Of a stretch of 64,000 bases of DNA, positions 3,651-14,377 are shown in pieces; the stretch's first letter is position 1; the number at the start of each line of letters is the position of its first letter. Below the pieces are notes generated by a model. It saw nothing but the letters and a program-made list of their open reading frames with translations. It ran no database searches and was not told the origin of the DNA. Made by a program: the position numbers and the translations under genes. The DNA is from an uncultured Actinomycetes bacterium (lineage in GTDB: Bacteria > Actinomycetota > Actinomycetes > Nanopelagicales > Nanopelagicaceae): assembly GCA_903834515.1 (NCBI GenBank), contig CAILJM010000025.1:1-64000 (forward strand), in the 5' to 3' direction.

Positions 3651-4409
3651 CTAGATAGAGGTGACGATAAATCCTGCAGATGCAAGGAACTTCTTCGCTG
3701 AATGGCCGCTGAGGTATGCATAGAAGGTCTTCGCCCAAGCACTCTTCGTCGTAGCTTTGGAATGAGAAATTCCGATTTGATACTGACTCAGCGCAGCGCT
3801 CGGATTGGAAAATGGGATGTACTTCAGCTTGCCAGAGTTGGCCAATACATCGGTCTTGAAGAGAATCGCTGCATCCACTGCCCCGGATAGTAATTTTGCA
3901 GTGGCAGCCGATGCAGTTGCTTCGAGCGAAACAGGATTGGTCGAGATAACCCCTTCACTCTTCAGGGCAGAGTCCGCCGCAATTCCGCATGGAACTGTAT
4001 GTCCGCATTGGAGCCAGGTTACTTTTCCGTTGAGGTCACTCAATTTCGTAATCGTCGAACCTTTGGGAATCGCAAGGACCACTTGGTTTTGAACATAGTT
4101 CTGGGCGGCCGGGAATACAGAAGAAGCCAGAGTCATGCTTGAGGTATCTGCCGAGGCGAAGATATCCGCAGGCGCTCCGGCGTTGATCTGTGAAGCTAGG
4201 GTCGTTGATGACCCGAAAGAAAATTTGATGGATACCTGAGGGTGGGCGGCCATGAATTTGTCGCCCAGCGCTGTGTAGGCCTTGGTCAGGCTAGATGCCG
4301 CATAGACCGTCACCGTTCGAGTGGACTCTGCTTGGGCGCTGGAGTATCCAGCGAGGGCGAGGCACACTGCTAAGGCCGCAACGAGGCTCACTTTACGAAC
4401 GTTTCTCAC
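3651..4409 (-). CDS. modA: Molybdate-binding protein ModA
   Basis: 252-aa periplasmic-type (extracytoplasmic) binding protein. A signal peptide covers about residues 1-27 (hydrophobic core LVAALAVCLALA, then GYSSAQA). The mature start VTVYAASSLTKAY and the GSSTTLASQINAGAPADIFASAD segment are typical of ModA. Oddly, the position where actinobacterial ModA lipoproteins carry the lipobox cysteine holds tyrosine (LALAGY, codon TAC, one base from TGC), so lipid anchoring looks lost and cleavage after AQA by signal peptidase I is more likely. The start is GTG 4409, 6 nt after TAGAAT. First gene of modAB and divergent from the cox accessory operon. Confidence 0.93.
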   Translation of the reverse strand: MRNVRKVSLVAALAVCLALAGYSSAQAESTRTVTVYAASSLTKAYTALGDKFMAAHPQVSIKFSFGSSTTLASQINAGAPADIFASADTSSMTLASSVFPAAQNYVQNQVVLAIPKGSTITKLSDLNGKVTWLQCGHTVPCGIAADSALKSEGVISTNPVSLEATASAATAKLLSGAVDAAILFKTDVLANSGKLKYIPFSNPSAALSQYQIGISHSKATTKSAWAKTFYAYLSGHSAKKFLASAGFIVTSI

Positions 4410-4826: not shown

Positions 4827-5714
4827 ATGGGCGAAATCAACTCATTTTCCGATCTTACGGTCGAGCAACTTCAATCCGATCTTGGATCCCTTGGCTATAT
4901 CTCAGATCGCGGTCTCACGACATCACTCTTGCTCTCAATGAAGCTTGGACGTCCGATCCTCTTAGAAGGTGAAGTAGGCGTAGGTAAGACCGAACTCGCT
5001 AAGACCGTTGCAAAACTTTATGGCCGCACTTTGATTCGCCTTCAATGCTATGAGGGCATAGACACCAATCAAGCGCTTTACGAGTGGGATTACGCTCGCC
5101 AGATGTTGCAGATCCGATCCATGAACGGAACTCACACCTCGGAGAGTGCTGTCGATGATCTCTTCGGTCCTAAATTCCTCATTGAGCGACCACTCCTTCA
5201 AGCAATTCGTGCTGGCGACCAGTGCGTGCTTTTAATTGACGAAGTTGATCGCGCGGATGATGAGTTTGAAGCCTTCTTGTTAGAACTCCTTTCAGACTTC
5301 CAGATCACAATTCCTGAAATCGGAACCGTTAAAGCTGCTTCTCGCCCCATCGTGATTCTCACCTCGAACCGGACCCGTGAACTCCATGATGCGCTCAAGC
5401 GTCGCTGTCTCTACAACTGGATTGGTTTCCCCGGCGAGGATCAGGAAGTTGCCATCGTCCAATCACGCCTGCCGGGCATAAGCGAACATCTCGCAAATCG
5501 CGTTGTCTCTGCAGTTCATAAGCTGCGCGAGATGGACCTCGAAAAGTCGCCTGGCGTTGCCGAGACTATCGATTGGGTTCAGTCATTGGATGCCATTGGC
5601 GCAGAAGAGCTTTCAGAAACAAATGTCTCCGAAACCCTTGGTGCGGTTATCAAAGGACGTGATGATTTAGAGTTTGTAACCAACAATCTTTCCGAGATTG
5701 TTTACGGTGACTAA
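4827..5714 (+). CDS. coxD: CoxD, MoxR-type AAA+ ATPase for CO dehydrogenase maturation
   Basis: 295 aa. MoxR-family AAA+ protein. Walker A is GEVGVGKT (residues 48-55) and Walker B is LLIDEVD (about 135-141), with a TSNRTRELHDALKRRC sensor/arginine region near 180-195. In Oligotropha, CoxD is a membrane-linked chaperone needed to add sulfur to, and so assemble, the Mo-Cu active site. Here it precedes coxE with an 8-bp overlap, the usual MoxR/VWA pairing. It starts 31 bp after the 85-aa ORF. No clear SD precedes ATG 4827, so coupling to the upstream ORF is possible. The cox identity rests on neighbourhood as well as on the MoxR fold. Confidence 0.93.
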   Translation: MGEINSFSDLTVEQLQSDLGSLGYISDRGLTTSLLLSMKLGRPILLEGEVGVGKTELAKTVAKLYGRTLIRLQCYEGIDTNQALYEWDYARQMLQIRSMNGTHTSESAVDDLFGPKFLIERPLLQAIRAGDQCVLLIDEVDRADDEFEAFLLELLSDFQITIPEIGTVKAASRPIVILTSNRTRELHDALKRRCLYNWIGFPGEDQEVAIVQSRLPGISEHLANRVVSAVHKLREMDLEKSPGVAETIDWVQSLDAIGAEELSETNVSETLGAVIKGRDDLEFVTNNLSEIVYGD

Positions 5715-6837
5715 CTCCGAAGGTTTCGACGAGTTATTTGTCGAGTTTGGACAAACCCTACGACGTGCCGGGCTGGTTATTGGCTCTGATGATGTCATCT
5801 CTTTCTGCCAAGCACTTGGGGAGCTCAATCCAAGTGACATGATGGATATTTACTGGGCTGGTCGAACCACGCTTGTGCGCCGCAGAGAAAATATCCCCAC
5901 ATACAACATCGTTTTTAAATCATTTTTCTTGGAGATCACCGAAGAAGAATCCGATTCCCGGAAGAAAAAAATCAAGGCATCAGTAAACACGAGTACCACA
6001 CTTGAGATTCCCAATGTCGAAGAAGGTCAACCAGGCAACGGTGAAGAAGAGTCCAAGATGGGCTACGTCGCATCAGCAAATGAGATCTATCGCCAGAAGG
6101 CTTTCGCTGAATGCACGCCGGCAGAGATGCAGGCTCTGCGAAAGATGATGAATGCCCTCAAACTCTCTCCCCCTAAACGTCGGACTCGTCGCCAGCAAAA
6201 TGTTCCTTCAGGAAAAAATCTCAACATGCGCAAGATTGTTCGTGAAACGATGCGTGCGCACGGTGAACCTCGCGAACTCTTCTACTCGCGCCGTAAAGAG
6301 AAGTTGCGCCCCGTGATATTTATTCTCGATGTCTCAGGTTCGATGGCGGACTACTCCCGCAACCTCTTGCAACTTGCCTACTCTGCCCGCCGCGCAAATA
6401 CCAAGGTAGAGGTCTTTGCCTTCGGCACCCGACTCACACGTATTACAAAATCTCTCTCCAAACGAAACCCTGATGAGGCTATGGAGCTTGCCGGTCAATC
6501 CGTCTTTGATTGGGAAGGTGGAACTCGTATCGGCGCTAGTATCGGTGAGTTCATCAAGGGATGGGGCCGCACTCGAGTCGGCCGTGGGGCAATCGTTGTG
6601 ATCTGCTCGGATGGCCTGGACCGAGGCGAACCTGCAGCACTTGCCAAGTCGATGGAGGCGCTCTCACGCATCGCTCATCGAGTTGTCTGGATGAATCCGC
6701 ATAAGGGTGACAATCTTGAGTGGGTACCGAACACAATGGGTATGGTTATTGCCGATCCATTTATTGATGAAGTTGTATCAGGACACAATCTCAAGAGTCT
6801 GGAAGAATTCAGTCTTAAGCTCGCATACATCAGATAG
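5707..6837 (+). CDS. coxE: CoxE, VWA-domain CO dehydrogenase maturation protein
   Basis: 376 aa from GTG 5707. The C-terminal half is a von Willebrand A domain with a complete metal-ion-dependent adhesion motif: DVSGS (about residues 208-212), the Thr in WEGGTRIG and the Asp in ICSDGLDRG. The N-terminal half is helical, with a basic central stretch (KRRTRRQQ) before the VWA domain. CoxE works with CoxD in building the [CuSMoO2] centre in Oligotropha. The GTG at 5707 overlaps the end of coxD by 8 bp. A TTG at 5698 is an alternative that adds three residues; I prefer GTG, but the SD is weak for both. Confidence 0.93.
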   Translation: MTNSEGFDELFVEFGQTLRRAGLVIGSDDVISFCQALGELNPSDMMDIYWAGRTTLVRRRENIPTYNIVFKSFFLEITEEESDSRKKKIKASVNTSTTLEIPNVEEGQPGNGEEESKMGYVASANEIYRQKAFAECTPAEMQALRKMMNALKLSPPKRRTRRQQNVPSGKNLNMRKIVRETMRAHGEPRELFYSRRKEKLRPVIFILDVSGSMADYSRNLLQLAYSARRANTKVEVFAFGTRLTRITKSLSKRNPDEAMELAGQSVFDWEGGTRIGASIGEFIKGWGRTRVGRGAIVVICSDGLDRGEPAALAKSMEALSRIAHRVVWMNPHKGDNLEWVPNTMGMVIADPFIDEVVSGHNLKSLEEFSLKLAYIR

Positions 6838-6847
6838 GGGTTCGATC

Positions 6848-7135
6848 GTGAAGTACAGCGTTTCTATCAAGGCCGAAGGCGATCGAGAGATCAAAATCGA
6901 GGAGGTCGTCGAACTTGCTGATGCAGTTGCGATCTACAGCGGTATCGCCGCTGGGGCTGGGACGATGGGCTACGGTGCGCAGATTCTGATTGAAGCCGAT
7001 TACACCGATGAGGCACTTGATAAGGCGATCGAGATCTTTAAGAAGGCTGCAGCCACTGCAAAGCTCCCCGACTGGCCGATCGTTAAAGCCGAAACCATGA
7101 CCGAAGACGAGGACTGGGAAGACGCCTTCGAATGA
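6848..7135 (+). CDS. 95-aa protein of unknown function in the cox accessory operon
   Basis: Not a family I recognise. It starts at GTG 6848 with AGGGG about 8 nt upstream, 10 bp after coxE, and its stop overlaps the next gene as ATGA. The predicted layout is strand-helix-strand-helix (KYSVSIKAEG, IEEVVELADAVAIYSGIAAG, YGAQILIEADY, DEALDKAIEIFKKAAATA), like a small ferredoxin-like fold without cysteines, ending in an acidic tail (TEDEDWEDAFE). A longer reading that begins upstream would overlap coxE extensively and is unlikely. Its place suggests a partner of CoxD/E or of the apo-enzyme. Confidence 0.8.
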   Translation: MKYSVSIKAEGDREIKIEEVVELADAVAIYSGIAAGAGTMGYGAQILIEADYTDEALDKAIEIFKKAAATAKLPDWPIVKAETMTEDEDWEDAFE

Positions 7136-7572
7136 TCCGTCTCGGCTCACTTGCTGGCTACCCATTTGAGGGACCTCGCTCACTCATGGGTTGGGCACCA
7201 CAAAAGATATCGGCTGTCTACGCCGTGATGTGCCTCAATGATCCAGAGAAGAAGCCAAAGGATTTCTCGGTTATCTATGTAGGCCACAGCGCCGACCTAT
7301 CGACAGTTGGTCTCCCACTCAAGCATCCGAAGTCATCGGCATGGGTTAAGCGATCAGGCGATAAATTCAACCTTTATATCTGTTGGTATGAATTCCTCGG
7401 TGGGACAGAGAAGCATCGCGATCAGATCGCCAAAGAGTTGATGGCGGTCTATCAACCGAGTTGTAATGATGAGCAATATGACCAGGCGTGGAAAGAAGAA
7501 TGGATCGGTGAATACTCAAATGCATTCACCGATCCACTTACTACTACTCGCGATCCGAACAATCGCACCTAA
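7132..7572 (+). CDS. GIY-YIG-like domain protein in cox accessory operon
   Basis: 146 aa. The N-terminal two thirds resemble a GIY-YIG nuclease domain: AVYAV (28-32) in place of GIY, IYVGHSADL (48-56) in place of YIG and the following turn, and KELMAVYQPSCN (101-112), which holds the expected catalytic Glu (E102). The arginine normally found in the helix after YIG is missing (residues 57-66 have none), so nuclease activity is doubtful. It overlaps the preceding gene as ATGA and ends the rightward operon, converging on the five small membrane genes. The family call is from motif reading only. A structural or binding role in CO dehydrogenase maturation is possible, but why it sits here is unknown. 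Confidence 0.75.
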   Translation: MIRLGSLAGYPFEGPRSLMGWAPQKISAVYAVMCLNDPEKKPKDFSVIYVGHSADLSTVGLPLKHPKSSAWVKRSGDKFNLYICWYEFLGGTEKHRDQIAKELMAVYQPSCNDEQYDQAWKEEWIGEYSNAFTDPLTTTRDPNNRT

Positions 7573-7605: not shown

Positions 7606-7971
7606 CTAGTCGATCTTTGCGCCGACACCATCGAAGAGGCGTGAGCGACGATGACCCATCGCTGGGAAGTTTGGCTTGCGGTGTTCTTCATGGTCAGGGT
7701 CTGCGACATATGTAGCCCCAACAACGATTCCTTCAGCCATTGTGTAGAGAAGAGGAAGCGCACCGGCGACAACACCACCTGTGGTGTTAATCCGCTCTAA
7801 GCCAGGCTCGATCGTATCTGCATCGGCCTTGATAGCCCATACAAGATCGGCCGCTTCTTCAAGCTTTGTCGCAACAGCAGCGAGCTGCTTACCGACGATG
7901 AATAGGTAGATCGCAAGTCCTGCGATGAGAGCGACAATGTCAATGACGCTGAAGATCTGTAGACCCTTCAT
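7606..7971 (-). CDS. Small membrane protein 5 of the cox-linked array (121 aa)
   Basis: Last gene of the leftward cox operon. One N-terminal membrane helix (about residues 9-28, IDIVALIAGLAIYLFIVGKQ) is followed by an amphipathic helix with INTTGGVVAGALPLL near residues 61-75, resembling the INRTAEAVDAVL stretch of the gene before it. A charged C-terminal extension with DPDHEEHRK and HRRSR has no counterpart in the other four. ATG 7971 overlaps the previous stop as ATGA. I know no named family. The predicted topology is a single anchor with a cytoplasmic or outside tail; the orientation cannot be fixed from sequence. Confidence 0.75.
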   Translation of the reverse strand: MKGLQIFSVIDIVALIAGLAIYLFIVGKQLAAVATKLEEAADLVWAIKADADTIEPGLERINTTGGVVAGALPLLYTMAEGIVVGATYVADPDHEEHRKPNFPAMGHRRSRLFDGVGAKID

Positions 7972-8243
7972 GAACGCACCTTCTCTAGTACTCGTCCGAG
8001 GAACAAGTGATGCTCTAGGCCTTCTGCCAAGACTGCATCAACTGCTTCTGCGGTTCTATTGATCAATTCAGTGTTCGCGGTATTGGCCTTAGCAGCAGTG
8101 AGGGTTGCGCGAATGTGAGCAACGCGCTTATCAATGGTGCGCACTAATAGCACGAGAATTGTAAGTAGCGCTGCAACCGCAACTACAACAACAGCTCCCA
8201 AGATATTTGCGGTGAGCCAGAGCGTATGGACGCTTGATGACAT
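7968..8243 (-). CDS. Small membrane protein 4 of the cox-linked array (91 aa)
   Basis: One long membrane helix (about residues 10-35, rich in V and A) is followed by a basic edge (RTIDKRVAHIR) and an amphipathic helix containing ANTANTELINRTAEAVDAVLAE. It has the same design as its neighbours and looks most like member 3 (8248-8502), which has NTAALENLNVTIASAHAIV at the same place. A strong SD (GGAGG) lies 8 nt before ATG 8243. Unknown function. Confidence 0.75.
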   Translation of the reverse strand: MSSSVHTLWLTANILGAVVVVAVAALLTILVLLVRTIDKRVAHIRATLTAAKANTANTELINRTAEAVDAVLAEGLEHHLFLGRVLEKVRS

Positions 8244-8247
8244 CTTC

Positions 8248-8502
8248 TCAGCCTCCTAGTTTCGTACGGCCGCGGTTGAGTCCTGCAACAATCGCATGGG
8301 CCGATGCGATGGTGACATTGAGATTTTCGAGTGCGGCGGTATTTTTCTCCGCGCCTTCAAGACCAGTGTTGATCGCCTTTGCCTGTCCACCGATTCGGTG
8401 AGCGAGGAGCAAAATTGGCACAACGAGTGCGACGACTACAAGGACGACAACGGTTGCAATGATGTAACCGAGAAGCCATCCGCTATGTGAGCTAAAGTCC
8501 AT
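8248..8502 (-). CDS. Small membrane protein 3 of the cox-linked array (84 aa)
   Basis: An N-terminal membrane helix (about residues 10-33, valine-rich) is followed by HRIGGQAKAINTGLEGAEK and an amphipathic segment NTAALENLNVTIASAHAIV, ending in basic residues (NRGRTKLGG). It shares the NT-x(5)-LN/IN-x-T pattern with member 4 downstream. SD GGGAG precedes ATG 8502 and the gene stands 10 bp after member 2. Unknown function. Confidence 0.75.
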   Translation of the reverse strand: MDFSSHSGWLLGYIIATVVVLVVVALVVPILLLAHRIGGQAKAINTGLEGAEKNTAALENLNVTIASAHAIVAGLNRGRTKLGG

Positions 8503-8512
8503 GATCTTCTCC

Positions 8513-8740
8513 CTAGATCGATTCCGCGAAATCTCGAACCGGCTTCAAACTTGCATTGACCGATGCGACAGCGGATGGAACGGTTGATGTCTTTGCGACG
8601 ATTACTTGGACTCCTCCATCAAGTGCATCGAGGGTCTTCACTACTGCACGCAGGTGCAATATGACTCGGATTAACCCGAGCGCAGCAGCCGCAATAATGA
8701 GCGTTGCCAAGATCAAAGTGAATACTGCTTCTTGTGGCAT
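8513..8740 (-). CDS. Small membrane protein 2 of the cox-linked array (75 aa)
   Basis: A membrane helix (about residues 6-25, FTLILATLIIAAAALGLIRV) is followed by HLRAVVKTLDALDGGVQVI and a second amphipathic stretch TVPSAVASVNASLKPVRDF. It has the same anchor-plus-amphipathic-helix design as its neighbours, but pairwise similarity is low. SD GAGAGG lies upstream of ATG 8740. Unknown function. Confidence 0.72.
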   Translation of the reverse strand: MPQEAVFTLILATLIIAAAALGLIRVILHLRAVVKTLDALDGGVQVIVAKTSTVPSAVASVNASLKPVRDFAESI

Positions 8741-8749
8741 CTACCTCTC

Positions 8750-9004
8750 CTATCCGAGTAACTTCGAAACTGGGCCGGCGTAGCGAACTGCGCCATTGGC
8801 GACATCTGCAATGACAGCCTCTGTCTTCTTCAATTGCTTTGGTGTGGCATCAAGCTCACCAATGAGTGCAACTCCGCCTGCGAGTGCGTCATCAGCTGCG
8901 CCACGAATACGCTCTAACGGCCCGAGGACCATATTGAGTAGTGCAACAAGTACCGGCACGATCACAACCAAGAGGATGAGATTTCCGATTCCCCATAAGC
9001 TCAT
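8750..9004 (-). CDS. Small membrane protein 1 of the cox-linked array (84 aa)
   Basis: First of the five small membrane genes, directly after coxG (18-bp gap). A membrane helix covers about residues 5-27 (IGNLILLVVIVPVLVALLNMVLG), then LERIRGAADDALAGGVALIGELDATPKQLKKTEAVIADVANGA forms amphipathic helices. SD AGGAG precedes ATG 9004. The DDALAGGVALI stretch resembles the LDALDGGVQVI of member 2, which supports common descent by duplication. Unknown function. Confidence 0.72.
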   Translation of the reverse strand: MSLWGIGNLILLVVIVPVLVALLNMVLGPLERIRGAADDALAGGVALIGELDATPKQLKKTEAVIADVANGAVRYAGPVSKLLG

Positions 9005-9022: not shown

Positions 9023-9610
9023 TTATCGACGTGCTACTGGTTGATATGGCAAGAAGAAGCGAGCGAAGATACGAGTCGCTGCTCTCTTCACGACTGTGAT
9101 CGCAATAGAAACACCGCTTGCAGCCTTTGGGCCACCTACAGAGTTTGGATCAAGTCCAAGTGAGATCGCCTTCATGCGAGCCTGCATGCTGCCAGCAGTT
9201 TGGTTGACCAAGACTGCGGTGACATCGGCGACCAAGCCACGACCAAATTGCGCAGCCGCACCAGAGATCGTGAGATCAAGTGAGATATTTACACGAGTTC
9301 CTGTGGCTGTCGGAGTAAGTGCTGCAGTGAGATTTGCTTGCGCTTCACCGCGACCCTTTCGATCGGCACCTGATGCTTCGATATTAATAATTTTCTTCGT
9401 GTTGTCGCGGCTCGTTACCTTTGCAGCTCCAGCGAATTCAAGCTTTACAGGACCGGCAGAGATGATGACATCTCCTTCGTAGTGATCCTCGCCAATTTTG
9501 TTGGTGAGATCTGCGCCAGGAATACACGCTGCTACCTGTGGGACATCATCAAAGAACTTCCATACGGCATCGATCTGTTGATCGACGTCGATCGCCTGCG
9601 AGATTAGCAT
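9023..9610 (-). CDS. coxG: CoxG, SRPBCC-family CO dehydrogenase membrane-linking protein
   Basis: 195 aa. A CoxG-type START/SRPBCC domain covers about residues 1-145 (DAVWKFFDDVPQVAACIPGADL, then GDVIISAGPVKLEFAGAAKV and GAAAQFGRGLVADV), typical of CO dehydrogenase subunit G. A C-terminal amphipathic segment near residues 168-188 (SIAITVVKRAATRIFARFF) could touch the membrane. CoxG homologues recruit CO dehydrogenase to the membrane, and a mycobacterial homologue has been reported to carry menaquinone to the enzyme. SD AGGAGG precedes ATG 9610; the start overlaps the end of the xdhC-YHS gene by 7 bp. The next five genes encode small membrane proteins, which fits a membrane-coupling role. Confidence 0.95.
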   Translation of the reverse strand: MLISQAIDVDQQIDAVWKFFDDVPQVAACIPGADLTNKIGEDHYEGDVIISAGPVKLEFAGAAKVTSRDNTKKIINIEASGADRKGRGEAQANLTAALTPTATGTRVNISLDLTISGAAAQFGRGLVADVTAVLVNQTAGSMQARMKAISLGLDPNSVGGPKAASGVSIAITVVKRAATRIFARFFLPYQPVARR

Positions 9611-10575
9611 TTTGCCTCCTGGTTGATGAATGAGGTGGGATCTTTTTCAAAAGTTGCGCGACATCCTGGTGCGCAGAAGTAATAGGTCGTACCTTCAAAT
9701 TCGAAGGGACGATTAGATTTTTCAGCGGTGACGGTCATTCCGCAGACGAGATCGATGACCTCATCGACTTCGATCATGGGGAGCAGTGCTGGACTTGCAG
9801 TTTTTACACTCTGATCAAAAATCCCCGTTGAGCGCAATTGAACCAACTCGGCCAAGATCGCTACCGCGACTTCGCGGTGTGAGGTATGACCAAGATCGAG
9901 TCCGGCAGGAACGTGAATCCGCTCAATCTCGGTAGCAGTGAAACGACGATCGAGGAGGTAATCCAGGACCGCCTTTCCGCGCTTGCGAGATGCAACAACG
10001 CCGAGATAGGCAGGCTTTGAAGCGAGCGCAATCTCTGCAGCCTCTTCATCACCATGGCCCTGTGTGGCCACGACAACGATTGAACTCTCATCGATCGAGC
10101 TGGCTGAGAAGTCATTCATATCGATGAGCTCTACTCGCCAGTCGAGCGCCTGAATTAATTGATTTAGCGTGATAGCCATCGGTGAACGGCCGACAATAAC
10201 GACACGGGGCGCCGCCGCAACTGGCTCTACATAAATCTGAAGTGCACCTTCGCTCTGACAAGCCATCGGAACTGTCATGACGCCATCTGGGACATGCATC
10301 CCTTTGAAGTCAGCTTCCTGGCCGAGCCAGATCAACTGCGCCTTTCCGGCTGCCATAACTTTCTTCGCTTCACGAATGAGGACGGGTTCAGCGCATGCGC
10401 CACCAATCCAACCGTGGAGTTTTCCGTCGCTAGTAATGATCGCTCGCGCGCCACTATGCCCCGAAGAGGGACCTTGGCGCCAGACGACAGTTGCCAAGAC
10501 AAAGGATTCACCATTCTTTGTCAGTTCAACTGCGCGCTCCATGACGCTCATTCCCTCTACGGTGCTCTGTGACAT
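9604..10575 (-). CDS. XdhC/CoxF-type Moco insertion protein fused to a YHS domain
   Basis: 323 aa from ATG 10575 (14 further residues are possible from an upstream codon inside coxL, judged unlikely). Domains in order: XdhC/CoxI N-terminal domain with GWIGGACAEPVLI, where the conserved Cys is kept; Rossmann-like XdhC C-terminal domain (PRVVIVGRSPMAITL, then PAYLGVVASRKRG and GLDLGHTSHREVAVAI); and a C-terminal YHS metal-binding domain (DLVCGMTV, YYFCAPGCRATFEKDPTSF). XdhC proteins deliver matured molybdenum cofactor to hydroxylase apo-enzymes. YHS domains occur in copper and heavy-metal handling proteins, so the fusion could bring copper to the Mo-Cu centre; that link is an inference. It sits 4 bp after coxL, with no SD, consistent with coupled translation. 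Confidence 0.9.
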   Translation of the reverse strand: MSQSTVEGMSVMERAVELTKNGESFVLATVVWRQGPSSGHSGARAIITSDGKLHGWIGGACAEPVLIREAKKVMAAGKAQLIWLGQEADFKGMHVPDGVMTVPMACQSEGALQIYVEPVAAAPRVVIVGRSPMAITLNQLIQALDWRVELIDMNDFSASSIDESSIVVVATQGHGDEEAAEIALASKPAYLGVVASRKRGKAVLDYLLDRRFTATEIERIHVPAGLDLGHTSHREVAVAILAELVQLRSTGIFDQSVKTASPALLPMIEVDEVIDLVCGMTVTAEKSNRPFEFEGTTYYFCAPGCRATFEKDPTSFINQEAKC

Positions 10576-10579
10576 CAGA

Positions 10580-12961
10580 TTAGTTACCGCTCCGAACAGG
10601 TGGCATGCCATAGACATCTTTACCTGTTGTGAGTGCTTCGTAGACGCGGTTTGGCATCAAAGGCATATCAATGTTGCGAACACCCTTGTGGCTAAGCGCA
10701 TTAACGACAGCGTTAACGAATGCAGCTGGTCCAGCAACTGTTGCGCACTCGCCTACGCCCTTTGCACCGATTGGATGGTGTGGGCAAGGTGTGACAACTT
10801 CATAGAGCTCGAACCCTGGAGTCTCCCAAGCTGTAGGCAAGAGGAAGTCCATGTAGTTAGCGCCGATGCAGTTACCTTCTTCGTCGTAAGTTTGGTACTG
10901 CATATTTGCCATCGCATAAGCCTCTGTGAGACCACCCATGATCTGACCTTCAACGATCATTGGGTTGATGCGAACGCCGCAGTCATCTACTGCTACGAAC
11001 TGAAGTACATCCCACACGCCAGTCTCTGGATCGATTTCGACCTTGCAGAAGTAAGCGGCGAATGGCCAGGTGAGGTTTGGTGGATCGTAGTACGCGGTAT
11101 TTTCCAGACCTGGCTCCATGCCATCAGGCATATTGCTGTAGGCGGCCATTGCGCACTCTTGAATCGTCACGCCGCGATCTGAATTTGAACGGACGTAGAA
11201 GCGACCAAGCTCCCACTCGATATCTTCCTCAGATACCTCGAGTAGGTGAGCAGCGATCTTACGTGCCTTGGCGCGGACCTTACGTGCAGCCATAGAGACG
11301 GCCGCTCCGGCAACAGGTGTGCTTCGTGAAGCGTAGGTACCCATACCAAATGGTGCGGTATCAGTATCGCCTTCTTCAACGACAATATCTTCAGCAGGTA
11401 TACCGAGCTCGTGAGCAACGATCTGCGCCCATGTTGTCTCGTGTCCTTGCCCCTGTGTCTTAGCACCGGTGCGAAGAATTGCCTTACCGGTCATATGTAC
11501 ACGAAGTTCAGCTGAATCGAACATCTTGATACCAAGGATGTCGTACTCACGGCTATTTCCTGCGCCAAGTGGCTCAGTCATCGTCGAGATACCGATTCCA
11601 AGAAGCTTGCCGCGCTTGCGCGCCTCTTCCTGTTCCTTAGCGAAGTCCTTATAGCCAATCGCTTCCATACCAACATTGAGGCACTTCTCGTACTGACCTG
11701 AGTCAGTGAGGAAGCCAAATGCTGTGCGGTGTGGGAAGTCGTCATCCTTAACAAAGTTGACGCGGCGGAACTCTGCCTGATCCATACCAAGATCATCAGC
11801 AGCAGCATGCACCATGCGCTCTTGGAAGAACATCGCTTCTGTTACTCGGAATGAGCAACGGTAAGCAACGCCACCTGGAGCCTTGTTGGTGTAATACCCA
11901 GTGGCAAACATATGCGCAGTTGGGATGTCGTAGCAGGCAAATGCTGAGTGCATCAGACCGATCTTGAACTTACTTGGCTGTGCATCTGCAAAGAATGCGC
12001 CGTGATCAGAGATGGTGTTCATGCGTACGCCAAGAATCTTTCCATCCTTGCGAAGCGCCATCTCACCCTTGAGGTAGACATCGCGACCAAAACCGGTTGA
12101 GATCAAGTTGCCGGTCTTATCTTCGATCCACTTTACTGGCTTCTCGGTCAAAATCGAGGCAAGAATCGAGATGACATAGCCAGGATAGACAGGAACCTTG
12201 TTACCAAATCCGCCACCGATATCAGGTGAAACAACGCGGATCTGCTGCTCAGGAAGCTCGGCAACCAATGCAACCGCTGCACGCACGATATGTGGCGCCT
12301 GCGAGGTTACATAAAAAGTAAGTTTTCCTGTAGCACGATCGAAGTCAGCGATCGAACCGCAGCACTCGATTGGTGATGGGTGGGTACGTGGGTAATGCAT
12401 CTCGACCTTGGATACGAGATCTGCATCCTCAAATGCCTTATCGGTACGAGCCTTATCGCCGATTTCCCAGTCGAAGACTTTGTTACCAACTTGGCCAGCT
12501 TTATCATCGCGAATCTGAATCGCATCTTCAGCTGCAGCCTGTACAGGGTTAACAATCGGAGGAAGGATTTCGTAATCCACAACGATCTTGGCACATGCAT
12601 CTTTGGCGATGTATGGATCATCAGCGATAACGGCACAGACTTCTTGTCCCTGGAAGCGGACCTTATCTGTCGCTAGGACAGCTGCTGTGTCGTAAGAGAG
12701 TGTTGGCATCCACGCGAGGTTACGTGCCGCCATCATCTCGCCAGTGAGGACAAGACGCACACCTGGCATATCCCAAGCAGCGCTGGTATCGATTGACTTG
12801 ATGCGAGCATGCGCAACTGGGCTACGCAAGATCTCCATGTGGAGCATGCCAGGTAGCACGATGTCGTCTACATAGTTACCTTTTCCGCGGATGAAGCGGT
12901 TATCTTCGACACGACGACGGCTTGCACCGAGTCCGCCAATTTTGATTTCGTCTAATGACAT
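10580..12961 (-). CDS. coxL: CO dehydrogenase large (molybdenum) subunit CoxL, form I
   Basis: 793 aa. Xanthine oxidase-family molybdenum subunit that holds the Mo-Cu-MCD active site and oxidises CO to CO2. The active-site loop reads AYRCSFR (residues 366-372), the form I signature, with C369 as the predicted copper ligand. The catalytic glutamate is in GAKGVGECA (E738). The glycine-rich PDIGGGFGNK motif (246-255) and the TQGQGHETTWAQI stretch (502-514) contact the cofactor and dinucleotide. The length is typical. SD GGGGCGA precedes ATG 12961. Operon order is coxM-coxS-coxL, as in other aerobic CO oxidisers. All diagnostic residues are present, so this should be a true CO dehydrogenase rather than a form II relative. 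Confidence 0.98.
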   Translation of the reverse strand: MSLDEIKIGGLGASRRRVEDNRFIRGKGNYVDDIVLPGMLHMEILRSPVAHARIKSIDTSAAWDMPGVRLVLTGEMMAARNLAWMPTLSYDTAAVLATDKVRFQGQEVCAVIADDPYIAKDACAKIVVDYEILPPIVNPVQAAAEDAIQIRDDKAGQVGNKVFDWEIGDKARTDKAFEDADLVSKVEMHYPRTHPSPIECCGSIADFDRATGKLTFYVTSQAPHIVRAAVALVAELPEQQIRVVSPDIGGGFGNKVPVYPGYVISILASILTEKPVKWIEDKTGNLISTGFGRDVYLKGEMALRKDGKILGVRMNTISDHGAFFADAQPSKFKIGLMHSAFACYDIPTAHMFATGYYTNKAPGGVAYRCSFRVTEAMFFQERMVHAAADDLGMDQAEFRRVNFVKDDDFPHRTAFGFLTDSGQYEKCLNVGMEAIGYKDFAKEQEEARKRGKLLGIGISTMTEPLGAGNSREYDILGIKMFDSAELRVHMTGKAILRTGAKTQGQGHETTWAQIVAHELGIPAEDIVVEEGDTDTAPFGMGTYASRSTPVAGAAVSMAARKVRAKARKIAAHLLEVSEEDIEWELGRFYVRSNSDRGVTIQECAMAAYSNMPDGMEPGLENTAYYDPPNLTWPFAAYFCKVEIDPETGVWDVLQFVAVDDCGVRINPMIVEGQIMGGLTEAYAMANMQYQTYDEEGNCIGANYMDFLLPTAWETPGFELYEVVTPCPHHPIGAKGVGECATVAGPAAFVNAVVNALSHKGVRNIDMPLMPNRVYEALTTGKDVYGMPPVRSGN

Positions 12962-12975
12962 ATCTCTATCGCCCC

Positions 12976-13503
12976 TTAGTTAGATTCCGCGCGCATTTTT
13001 TCAGCAGCCCAAAGAACTGCCTTCACAATATTTTGATACCCAGTGCAACGGCAAAGATTTCCAGAGAGCGCCCAACGAATTTCATCTTCAGTTGGATTTG
13101 GATTTCTCTCGAGAAGTGCCTTTGCAGACAACATCATTCCTGGTGTGCAGAAACCGCATTGAAGGCCATGCTCTTGCTTAAAGCCTTCTTGGATTGGATG
13201 AAGTTCGCTCGGTGTTGCAAGACCTTCAACAGTTTGAACTTCGCGACCATCTGCCTGGACTGCGAGCATGGTGCAACTCTTTACTGGACGGCCAGCAACA
13301 AGAACGGTGCATGCACCGCAGTTTGTTGTGTCGCAACCCTTGTGAGTTCCGGTGAGATCAAGTCCCTGACGAAGCAGGTCGGCAAGTAGCAGACGAGGCT
13401 CGACATCAAGTGTGCGATCTGTTCCGTTTACATTGACGGTGATGCGACGAACTGGAATGTTGTCGGCAGGAGGAGTTGCAATCTCTTCAAAAAGACTCGA
13501 CAT
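12976..13503 (-). CDS. coxS: CO dehydrogenase small (2x[2Fe-2S]) subunit CoxS
   Basis: 175 aa. Two [2Fe-2S] clusters: a plant ferredoxin-type site with C57, C62, C65 and C77, and an all-helical site with C116, C119, C151 and C153 (CGFC and CRCTGY). It passes electrons from the molybdenum centre in CoxL to the flavin in CoxM. The N-terminus has about 15 residues before the ferredoxin fold begins (RRITVNVNG). ATG 13503 lies 4 bp after the coxM stop. Confidence 0.98.
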
Positions 13504-13507
13504 ATTT

Positions 13508-14377
13508 TTAGGCTACTTTCTCTGCGATTTGGGCAACAAGGATTCGCTTAACAAATGTTTTAACAATCTGACGCTTGTAGTCAGAAGATCCACGGTGATC
13601 GGTACGTGGTTCAGCCTTTGCAGCGACAGCTGCAGCGACAGTATCGATGATCGACTCTGTGAGATCGTGGCCCACGAGAGCAGATGCTTCTTCATTCGCA
13701 TCAATGGTCTTTCCGCCCACGCCAGCGAGGGCGATACCAGCGCGCAATACGCGGTTTCCATCCATATCCAACGCCACAGCAACGGATGCGGTTGCGAAGT
13801 CACCGACGCGACGCTCGAGTTTCAAGTAACCACCACGAGCGACTCCCTTTGGTGCTGGGATAACTGCTTCGATCGCAATCTCGTTGTAGTTAAGTGCATT
13901 TGCATATGGACCAAGAACGAAATCCTTCATATCAATGGTGCGCTTGCCTTTAGGACCTTGCACGACAAGATGGCCACCAAGAGCAATCATTGTTGCAGCC
14001 CAGTCTCCTTGCGGATCGGCGTGGCATACAGAGCCAACGAAAGTTCCACGGGTGCGAACAATTGGATCAGCAACAAGTGGCGCTGCTGCAGCAATGGTTG
14101 GTTGACGTTGAGCAATTTCGGCAGAGTGTTCGAGATCTTCATGGCGACAGAGTGCGCCAATATGAAGTGAACCATCTGCATCAAAGCGGTGATAATCCAA
14201 ACCAGGAATATTGTTGATATCAACGATTTGATCAGGGAATGCAAAGCGAAGTTTTAACATTGGCACCAAGCTCTGACCGCCAGCCAAAATCTTCGCATCG
14301 CCCTTGCCTGCATCAAGAAGTGCGACTGCAGCTTCTATCGTCTTGGGAGATTCGTATTTAAATCGTGATGGATACAT
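13508..14377 (-). CDS. coxM: CO dehydrogenase medium (FAD) subunit CoxM
   Basis: 289 aa. FAD-binding subunit of the molybdenum hydroxylase. The N-terminal FAD motif is AGGQS (32-36), and the second FAD contact region is [18 protein letters not shown] (from about 108), in place of the common TIGGS. The CO_deh_flav_C domain covers roughly residues 170-285. It hands electrons to the quinone pool or to CoxG-bound quinone. SD AGGAGCAAGG precedes ATG 14377. It follows the 77-aa ORF by 25 bp. Confidence 0.97.

Follow-up and report, generated by a model that had tools for sequence, protein, structure and literature searches.

Five small one-helix membrane proteins, probably a shared membrane plug, accompany a form I CO dehydrogenase and [NiFe]-hydrogenases of Actinobacteriota

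To our knowledge, the hand-over of electrons from cytoplasmic oxidisers of atmospheric CO and H2 to the quinone pool is known only for CoxG of the M. smegmatis type and for Huc. The window analysed here, a 64,000-nucleotide stretch of actinobacterial DNA taken at its full length, carries an aerobic CO dehydrogenase (CODH) operon in which coxG is directly followed by five short genes, S1-S5. What, then, does such an array do behind the gene of a quinone-carrier-type protein? The initial annotation had suggested a membrane scaffold or docking patch for CODH and CoxG, made by duplication. The array and its surroundings are as follows.

4827..5714, plus strand: coxD-like AAA ATPase, convergent to the array (PF07728; best NCBIfam match a MadB-type ATPase, below cut-off)
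5698..6837, plus strand: coxE-like VWA protein, convergent to the array (PF05762 VWA_CoxE, 165 bits)
7499..7538, minus strand: terminator-like hairpin with a 17-bp stem, just behind S5 and within the 3′ end of a convergent ORF (consensus match only)
7606..7971, minus strand: S5, one-helix membrane protein of 121 aa with a conserved GALPLLY stretch and an RRSR tail
7968..8243, minus strand: S4, one-helix membrane protein of 91 aa with an almost invariant C-terminus, VLxEGLEHHLFLGRVLxKVR
8248..8502, minus strand: S3, one-helix membrane protein of 84 aa, paralogue of S4, whose profile retrieves hydrogenase-linked homologues
8513..8740, minus strand: S2, one-helix membrane protein of 75 aa, sharing DALxGGVxxI with S1
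8750..9004, minus strand: S1, one-helix membrane protein of 84 aa, first in the array and directly behind coxG in 100/101 loci
9023..9610, minus strand: coxG, quinone-carrier-type protein without a C-terminal membrane anchor, ending RIFARFFLPYQPVARR (PF06240, 67.3 bits)
9604..10617, minus strand: coxI-like, an XdhC/CoxI maturation protein with a fused YHS metal-binding domain at its C-terminus (PF13478, PF02625, PF04945)
10580..12961, minus strand: coxL, large subunit of a form I aerobic CODH (TIGR02416, 1099.5 bits, cut-off 991.15)
12976..13503, minus strand: coxS, subunit with two [2Fe-2S] clusters (PF01799, PF00111)
13508..14377, minus strand: coxM, FAD subunit (PF00941, PF03450)

The active-site loop of the window CoxL, as read from the sequence, is AYRCSFR and meets the form I pattern AYXCSFR. 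The YHS domain on the coxI product could bring copper to the Mo-Cu site; coxI is absent between coxL and coxG in some loci (L061, L063 and L064). Moreover, two small plus-strand genes at 6850-7572 follow coxE and converge on S5. Neither has a confident Pfam match, and ORFs of similar size lie after coxE in most related loci.

All five leftward ORFs that had been placed at 7606-9004 are present there on the minus strand. They are tightly packed, with gaps of 18 nt between coxG and S1, 9 nt between S1 and S2, 10 nt between S2 and S3 and 4 nt between S3 and S4, whilst the stop of S4 and the start of S5 overlap by 4 nt (ATGA). Shine-Dalgarno sequences had been noted for most of the five; S1-S4 have purine-rich, SD-like stretches, and S5 is translationally coupled to S4. 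A consensus scan found no minus-strand promoter-like site from coxG to S5, where the initial annotation had seen no gap for another promoter. The unit coxG-S1-S2-S3-S4-S5 is complete and on a single strand in 100 of the 101 actinobacterial loci in which coxG is visible, the sole exception stopping at a contig end, and the small gaps and the 4-nt S4/S5 overlap are conserved across more than 100 loci. Comparison with five relatives gave dN/dS values of 0.04-0.21 in all cases that allowed the calculation. Because of these low values and of small gaps recurring in so many loci, S1-S5 are genuine genes under strong purifying selection.

None of the five matched Pfam or NCBIfam above cut-off. Their sub-threshold matches in Pfam, NCBIfam and PHROGs were mutually unrelated and were put down to helix composition, as were weak matches of S5 to designed coiled-coil tetramers in the PDB. 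The proposed origin by duplication stands for S3 and S4, which are clear paralogues (hhalign 97%); the other members are too diverged for proof. Taken together, these data support the array being part of the cox operon and having been born at least partly by duplication.

At the N-terminus of each protein lies a single, strongly hydrophobic segment (Kyte-Doolittle mean 2.6-3.3), as expected of the one N-terminal membrane helix attributed to it. The two sequence patterns recognised by the initial annotation are likewise there: DALxGGVxxI reads DDALAGGVALI in S1 and LDALDGGVQVI in S2, and NT or INxT is found in S3-S5. Positive charges come after the helix, not before it, in 273/285 homologues, and the predicted topology is therefore N-out, C-in. 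In four of the five proteins the strongest periodicity of the cytoplasmic segment is 102.5-105.5 degrees (about 102-106), a value shown by heptad coiled coils; the shuffle p values are 0.06, 0.01, 0.008 and 0.0005. The S4 cytoplasmic segment showed no significant helical periodicity. A membrane helix followed by a separate amphipathic helix, as first described for all five, fails for S4, which AlphaFold models as one continuous helix of 88 residues (3-90; mean pLDDT 83, pTM 0.44). If straight, the cytoplasmic part of this model would reach roughly 80 Å.

CoxG itself differs from its better-known relatives. It has been described as menaquinone-binding, with a proposed role in electron delivery to the quinone pool (PMC13240472). 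The window CoxG exceeds the PF06240 cut-off of 22.2 bits and thus belongs to the CoxG family, and its AlphaFold model matches M. smegmatis CoxG (8UDS) with an E value of 6e-13 and a TM-score of 0.89 of the target, a CoxG/START-like fold. The 8UDS structure was deposited as 'minus lipid anchoring C-terminus'. Thus family and fold are those of anchored CoxG; the window protein, however, lacks the mainstream-type C-terminal hydrophobic anchor, which is presumably replaced by S1-S5. Its tail is of low hydrophobicity, with a low-confidence helix modelled at 166-186. Amongst mainstream actinobacterial CoxG, 17/18 array-free loci encode a hydrophobic C-terminal helix, whereas 103/105 array-linked CoxG have no C-terminal anchor (a hydrophobic tail is found in 2/105) and 100/105 end in FFxPY or FMxPY. 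One genome, G353 (locus L059), has two CoxG at a single locus: that on the array side is without a hydrophobic tail and the more distant one has it. Moreover, locus L341 encodes a CODH without an adjacent array, and its CoxG has the anchor. The CoxG beside the array has therefore lost the C-terminal anchor of mainstream CoxG. Since the counts come largely from one CoxL clade, this computed anticorrelation of anchor and array may reflect few, or an uncounted number of, independent losses.

The association with form I coxL anticipated by the initial annotation takes the form of confinement to one CoxL subclade. We searched a class-level sample of 395 genomes for both CoxL and S4. Strong S4 matches occurred in 17, every one in a cox operon of a CoxL subclade scoring about 1100 bits; 16 of these genomes have a CoxL of this group, and in the 17th (G377) the contig is cut inside coxL beside the array. 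No array was found beside mainstream actinobacterial CoxL (1250-1480 bits) in 25 loci inspected. A tree of 35 array-linked and 26 array-free CoxL sequences needs a single state change, and, being unrooted, gives no direction. Every array-linked CoxL in this tree has the loop AYRCSFR and the array-free sequences read AYACSFR or AYSCSFR, except L341, which has AYRCSFR; this loop was consequently dropped as a marker rule. Both types can meet in one genome: a single contig of a Nocardioides MAG (L138) carries two coxL genes (at 13837, minus strand, and at 4035, plus strand), of which one belongs to the array type and the other to the mainstream type.

In an order-level sample, 11/151 genomes have form I coxL and the array lies behind coxG in 11/11. 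When run against genome contigs, the S4 profile matched at 146 places, and the 80 that we retained come from Actinomycetes, Acidimicrobiia and Nitriliruptoria. Three titles from the scan name other phyla or archaea (L100, L118 and L137) and look like mis-binned MAG contigs; in L118, the one locus that this check covered, CoxL falls within the actinobacterial clade. Cultured carriers of the array include Frankia nepalensis, Planosporangium flavigriseum and Trebonia kvetii. A search of plasmids with S4 gave no match, and one with a 1l-type small subunit gave only group 1h-like relatives of less than 60% identity.

The array is not exclusive to CODH, as had first been supposed: homologues also accompany [NiFe]-hydrogenases of group 1l/1m type, these groups being assigned by gene layout only. 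In locus L156 a distant S3, S4 and S5 trio is divergent from a [NiFe]-hydrogenase whose large subunit is nearest to the C. necator group 1h enzyme (5AA5), with approximately 40% identity to typical actinobacterial homologues. Five loci of the 1l type (L290, L292 and L298-L300) have five homologues, ordered S3-S4-S5-S1-S2, placed between hydS and hydL, and in L297 the array continues into hydL. In 1m-type clusters, marked by a CooC-type ATPase and a protease, the S1-S2 pair is separate from the S3-S4-S5 trio. Hydrogenase-linked homologues are spread across Actinobacteriota. Homologues away from coxL, which had been regarded as speaking against a docking role, thus do occur, but they lie beside group 1l/1m-type hydrogenases, and the docking idea is therefore widened, not killed. 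A module common to all high-affinity hydrogenases was ruled out, as 20 typical group 1h loci were without the array, and weak S3-profile matches such as those in G414 and G482, where no array is present, were dismissed as chance. Several loci (L279 at 5355-7283, minus strand; also L275, L285, L286, L288 and L293) contain three extra relatives of 200-330 aa, each with a single helix ahead of long INxTAxx repeats and of C-terminal cysteines. In these relatives the positive charges lie before the helix, which suggests the opposite (outside) orientation; the three of L279 had no Pfam match.

Could these proteins be general organisers of membrane domains, with no special tie to trace gases and an apparent link that reflects sampling? 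Part of the module can indeed sit elsewhere. In one family (L277, L283 and L302) the S3-S4-S5 trio adjoins a protein of approximately 1600 aa with an N-terminal DUF255 thioredoxin domain, away from CODH and hydrogenase genes. There is also a weak similarity to DUF948 (PF06103), which likewise combines an N-terminal helix with a coiled coil: one hydrogenase-linked S3 homologue scored 18.8 bits, below the cut-off of 37.2, and S1-S5 themselves gave no match to this family. However, S3-profile matches were found in 34 of the 366 genomes of a phylum-level sample. One was spurious, as judged by its length and score; of the 33 genomes with a credible match, 11 carry it within a cox cluster and about 20 within a hydrogenase cluster, the remainder being in the DUF255 context. 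The DUF255-linked genomes, moreover, also encode CoxL and/or hydrogenase, and one of them (G658) has homologues near a coxL, where CoxG is again without an anchor. We give the general organiser very little credence.

Short membrane proteins of this kind have been seen before. HylTM1-5 were described in 2022 as short proteins, predicted to be transmembrane, of the group 1l [NiFe]-hydrogenase, with no function assigned (PMC9561532, in the part available, citing an earlier study), and the five homologues in our 1l-type loci are evidently HylTM1-5. As with S1-S5, these are five consecutive short one-helix proteins in a block with enzyme structural genes, and four of the positions are homologous to S3, S4, S1 and S2. 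In a profile comparison at positions defined by gene order, HylTM1 paired with S3 at 92.8%, HylTM2 with S4 at 96.5%, HylTM4 with S1 at 96.1% and HylTM5 with S2 at 91.7%, with scores of 38-54 against 28 or less (46% or less) for reversed controls. HylTM3 is split between S2 and S5, and its pairing with S5 is not above reversed controls. The arrangements differ, in that the HylTM block separates the small and large subunit genes and runs S3-S4-S5-S1-S2, whereas the window array stands behind coxG in the order S1-S5 and goes with CODH. The rest of the genome from which the window comes gave no further S3 homologue. However, two more distant cox operons (L294 and L296) have the order S3-S4-S5-S1-S2 and match S3, S4, S5, S1 and S2 at 93-99%. 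Since hydrogenase-type gene order and homology also occur in cox operons, the five-member set is older than its present partners. In the part available, PMC9561532 proposes no function for HylTM1-5 and gives no CODH version. For group 1m it reports two one-helix proteins of 82-92 aa in the enzyme cluster, which match the S1-S2 pair of our 1m-type loci; the S3-S4-S5 trio, divergent or nearby in these loci, goes unmentioned in that part. In the open-access PMC papers that we searched, HylTM is named by one paper only, and we found none that connects proteins of this kind with CODH.

Because the same set adjoins unrelated CO- and H2-oxidising enzymes, S1-S5 are probably a shared plug that ties gas-scavenging enzymes to the cell membrane. 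In the reading that we favour, and which we consider rather probable, the five form one hetero-oligomeric membrane stalk that docks CODH/CoxG or hydrogenase, gives access to menaquinone and replaces the CoxG anchor. Each protein would be one N-out/C-in helix that starts by crossing the membrane and then extends for some 55 residues into the cytoplasm, where it is amphipathic and of the heptad type. The five helices would jointly make a short stalk on which a cytoplasmic trace-gas oxidoreductase docks and through which the docked enzyme would gain access to menaquinone. The partner here would be form I CODH by way of anchorless CoxG, for which S1-S5 would be the landing place, the conserved FFxPY tail of CoxG being the putative contact; in group 1l/1m-type clusters the partner would be the [NiFe]-hydrogenase. 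That the five assemble with one another, bind CoxG or the enzyme and let quinone pass along them is what we infer. The docking patch originally proposed fits in its operon membership, in the single CoxL subclade and in the anchorless CoxG, and fails in its exclusivity for CODH.

A narrower role, as an anchoring or clustering scaffold that keeps numerous enzyme copies on the membrane and leaves quinone transport to CoxG alone, appears unlikely to us. It draws on the presence of CoxG in every CODH version, with the CoxG fold kept, and a docking role would suffice to explain the loss of the anchor. However, no CoxG was seen in the hydrogenase-type clusters inspected, so there the module itself or another subunit would have to supply quinone access, and five distinct conserved proteins exceed the needs of an anchor. 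Somewhat less likely still is that S1-S5 stand outside the working enzyme as membrane-bound assembly factors, serving metal-centre insertion or the maturation of CODH and hydrogenase. Maturation genes do lie nearby in both settings, namely coxI, coxD and coxE here and those for a CooC-type ATPase, HypD and a protease in 1m-type loci. Yet the maturation chemistries of Mo-Cu CODH and [NiFe]-hydrogenase are unrelated whilst the five proteins are the same, neither mainstream CODH nor group 1h hydrogenase needs them for maturation, and in 1l-type loci the array sits between structural genes. Both partner enzymes use sparingly soluble gases that partition into lipid, and the helices might accordingly be imagined as a funnel leading CO and H2 out of the membrane and into the active site. 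This idea, itself purely inferential, we regard as highly improbable, given that other high-affinity CODHs and hydrogenases function without the module and that gas gets to the active sites of such enzymes through channels in the protein.

The quinone-supplying stalk that we prefer has a parallel in HucM of the group 2a hydrogenase Huc, a tetramer whose amphipathic helices form a hydrophobic tube through which the enzyme receives menaquinone from the membrane (PMC10017518). The role proposed here for S1-S5 is similar. HucM, however, is one protein, a homotetramer with an enzyme-binding domain that is peripheral at the membrane, whereas S1-S5 are five distinct proteins, and searches of PDB chains with the S4 and S5 profiles matched no Huc chain. 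A bolder version makes S1-S5 an interchangeable five-helix quinone stalk of a lineage of its own, paired with the unrelated Mo-Cu CODH and [NiFe]-hydrogenase and itself conducting menaquinone; this is possible, and we put it forward tentatively. A module shared by a second CODH type and by group 1l/1m-type hydrogenases would give abundant freshwater, marine and soil Actinobacteriota one common solution to the hand-over of electrons to the quinone pool. Moreover, the HylTM proteins would gain a testable role.
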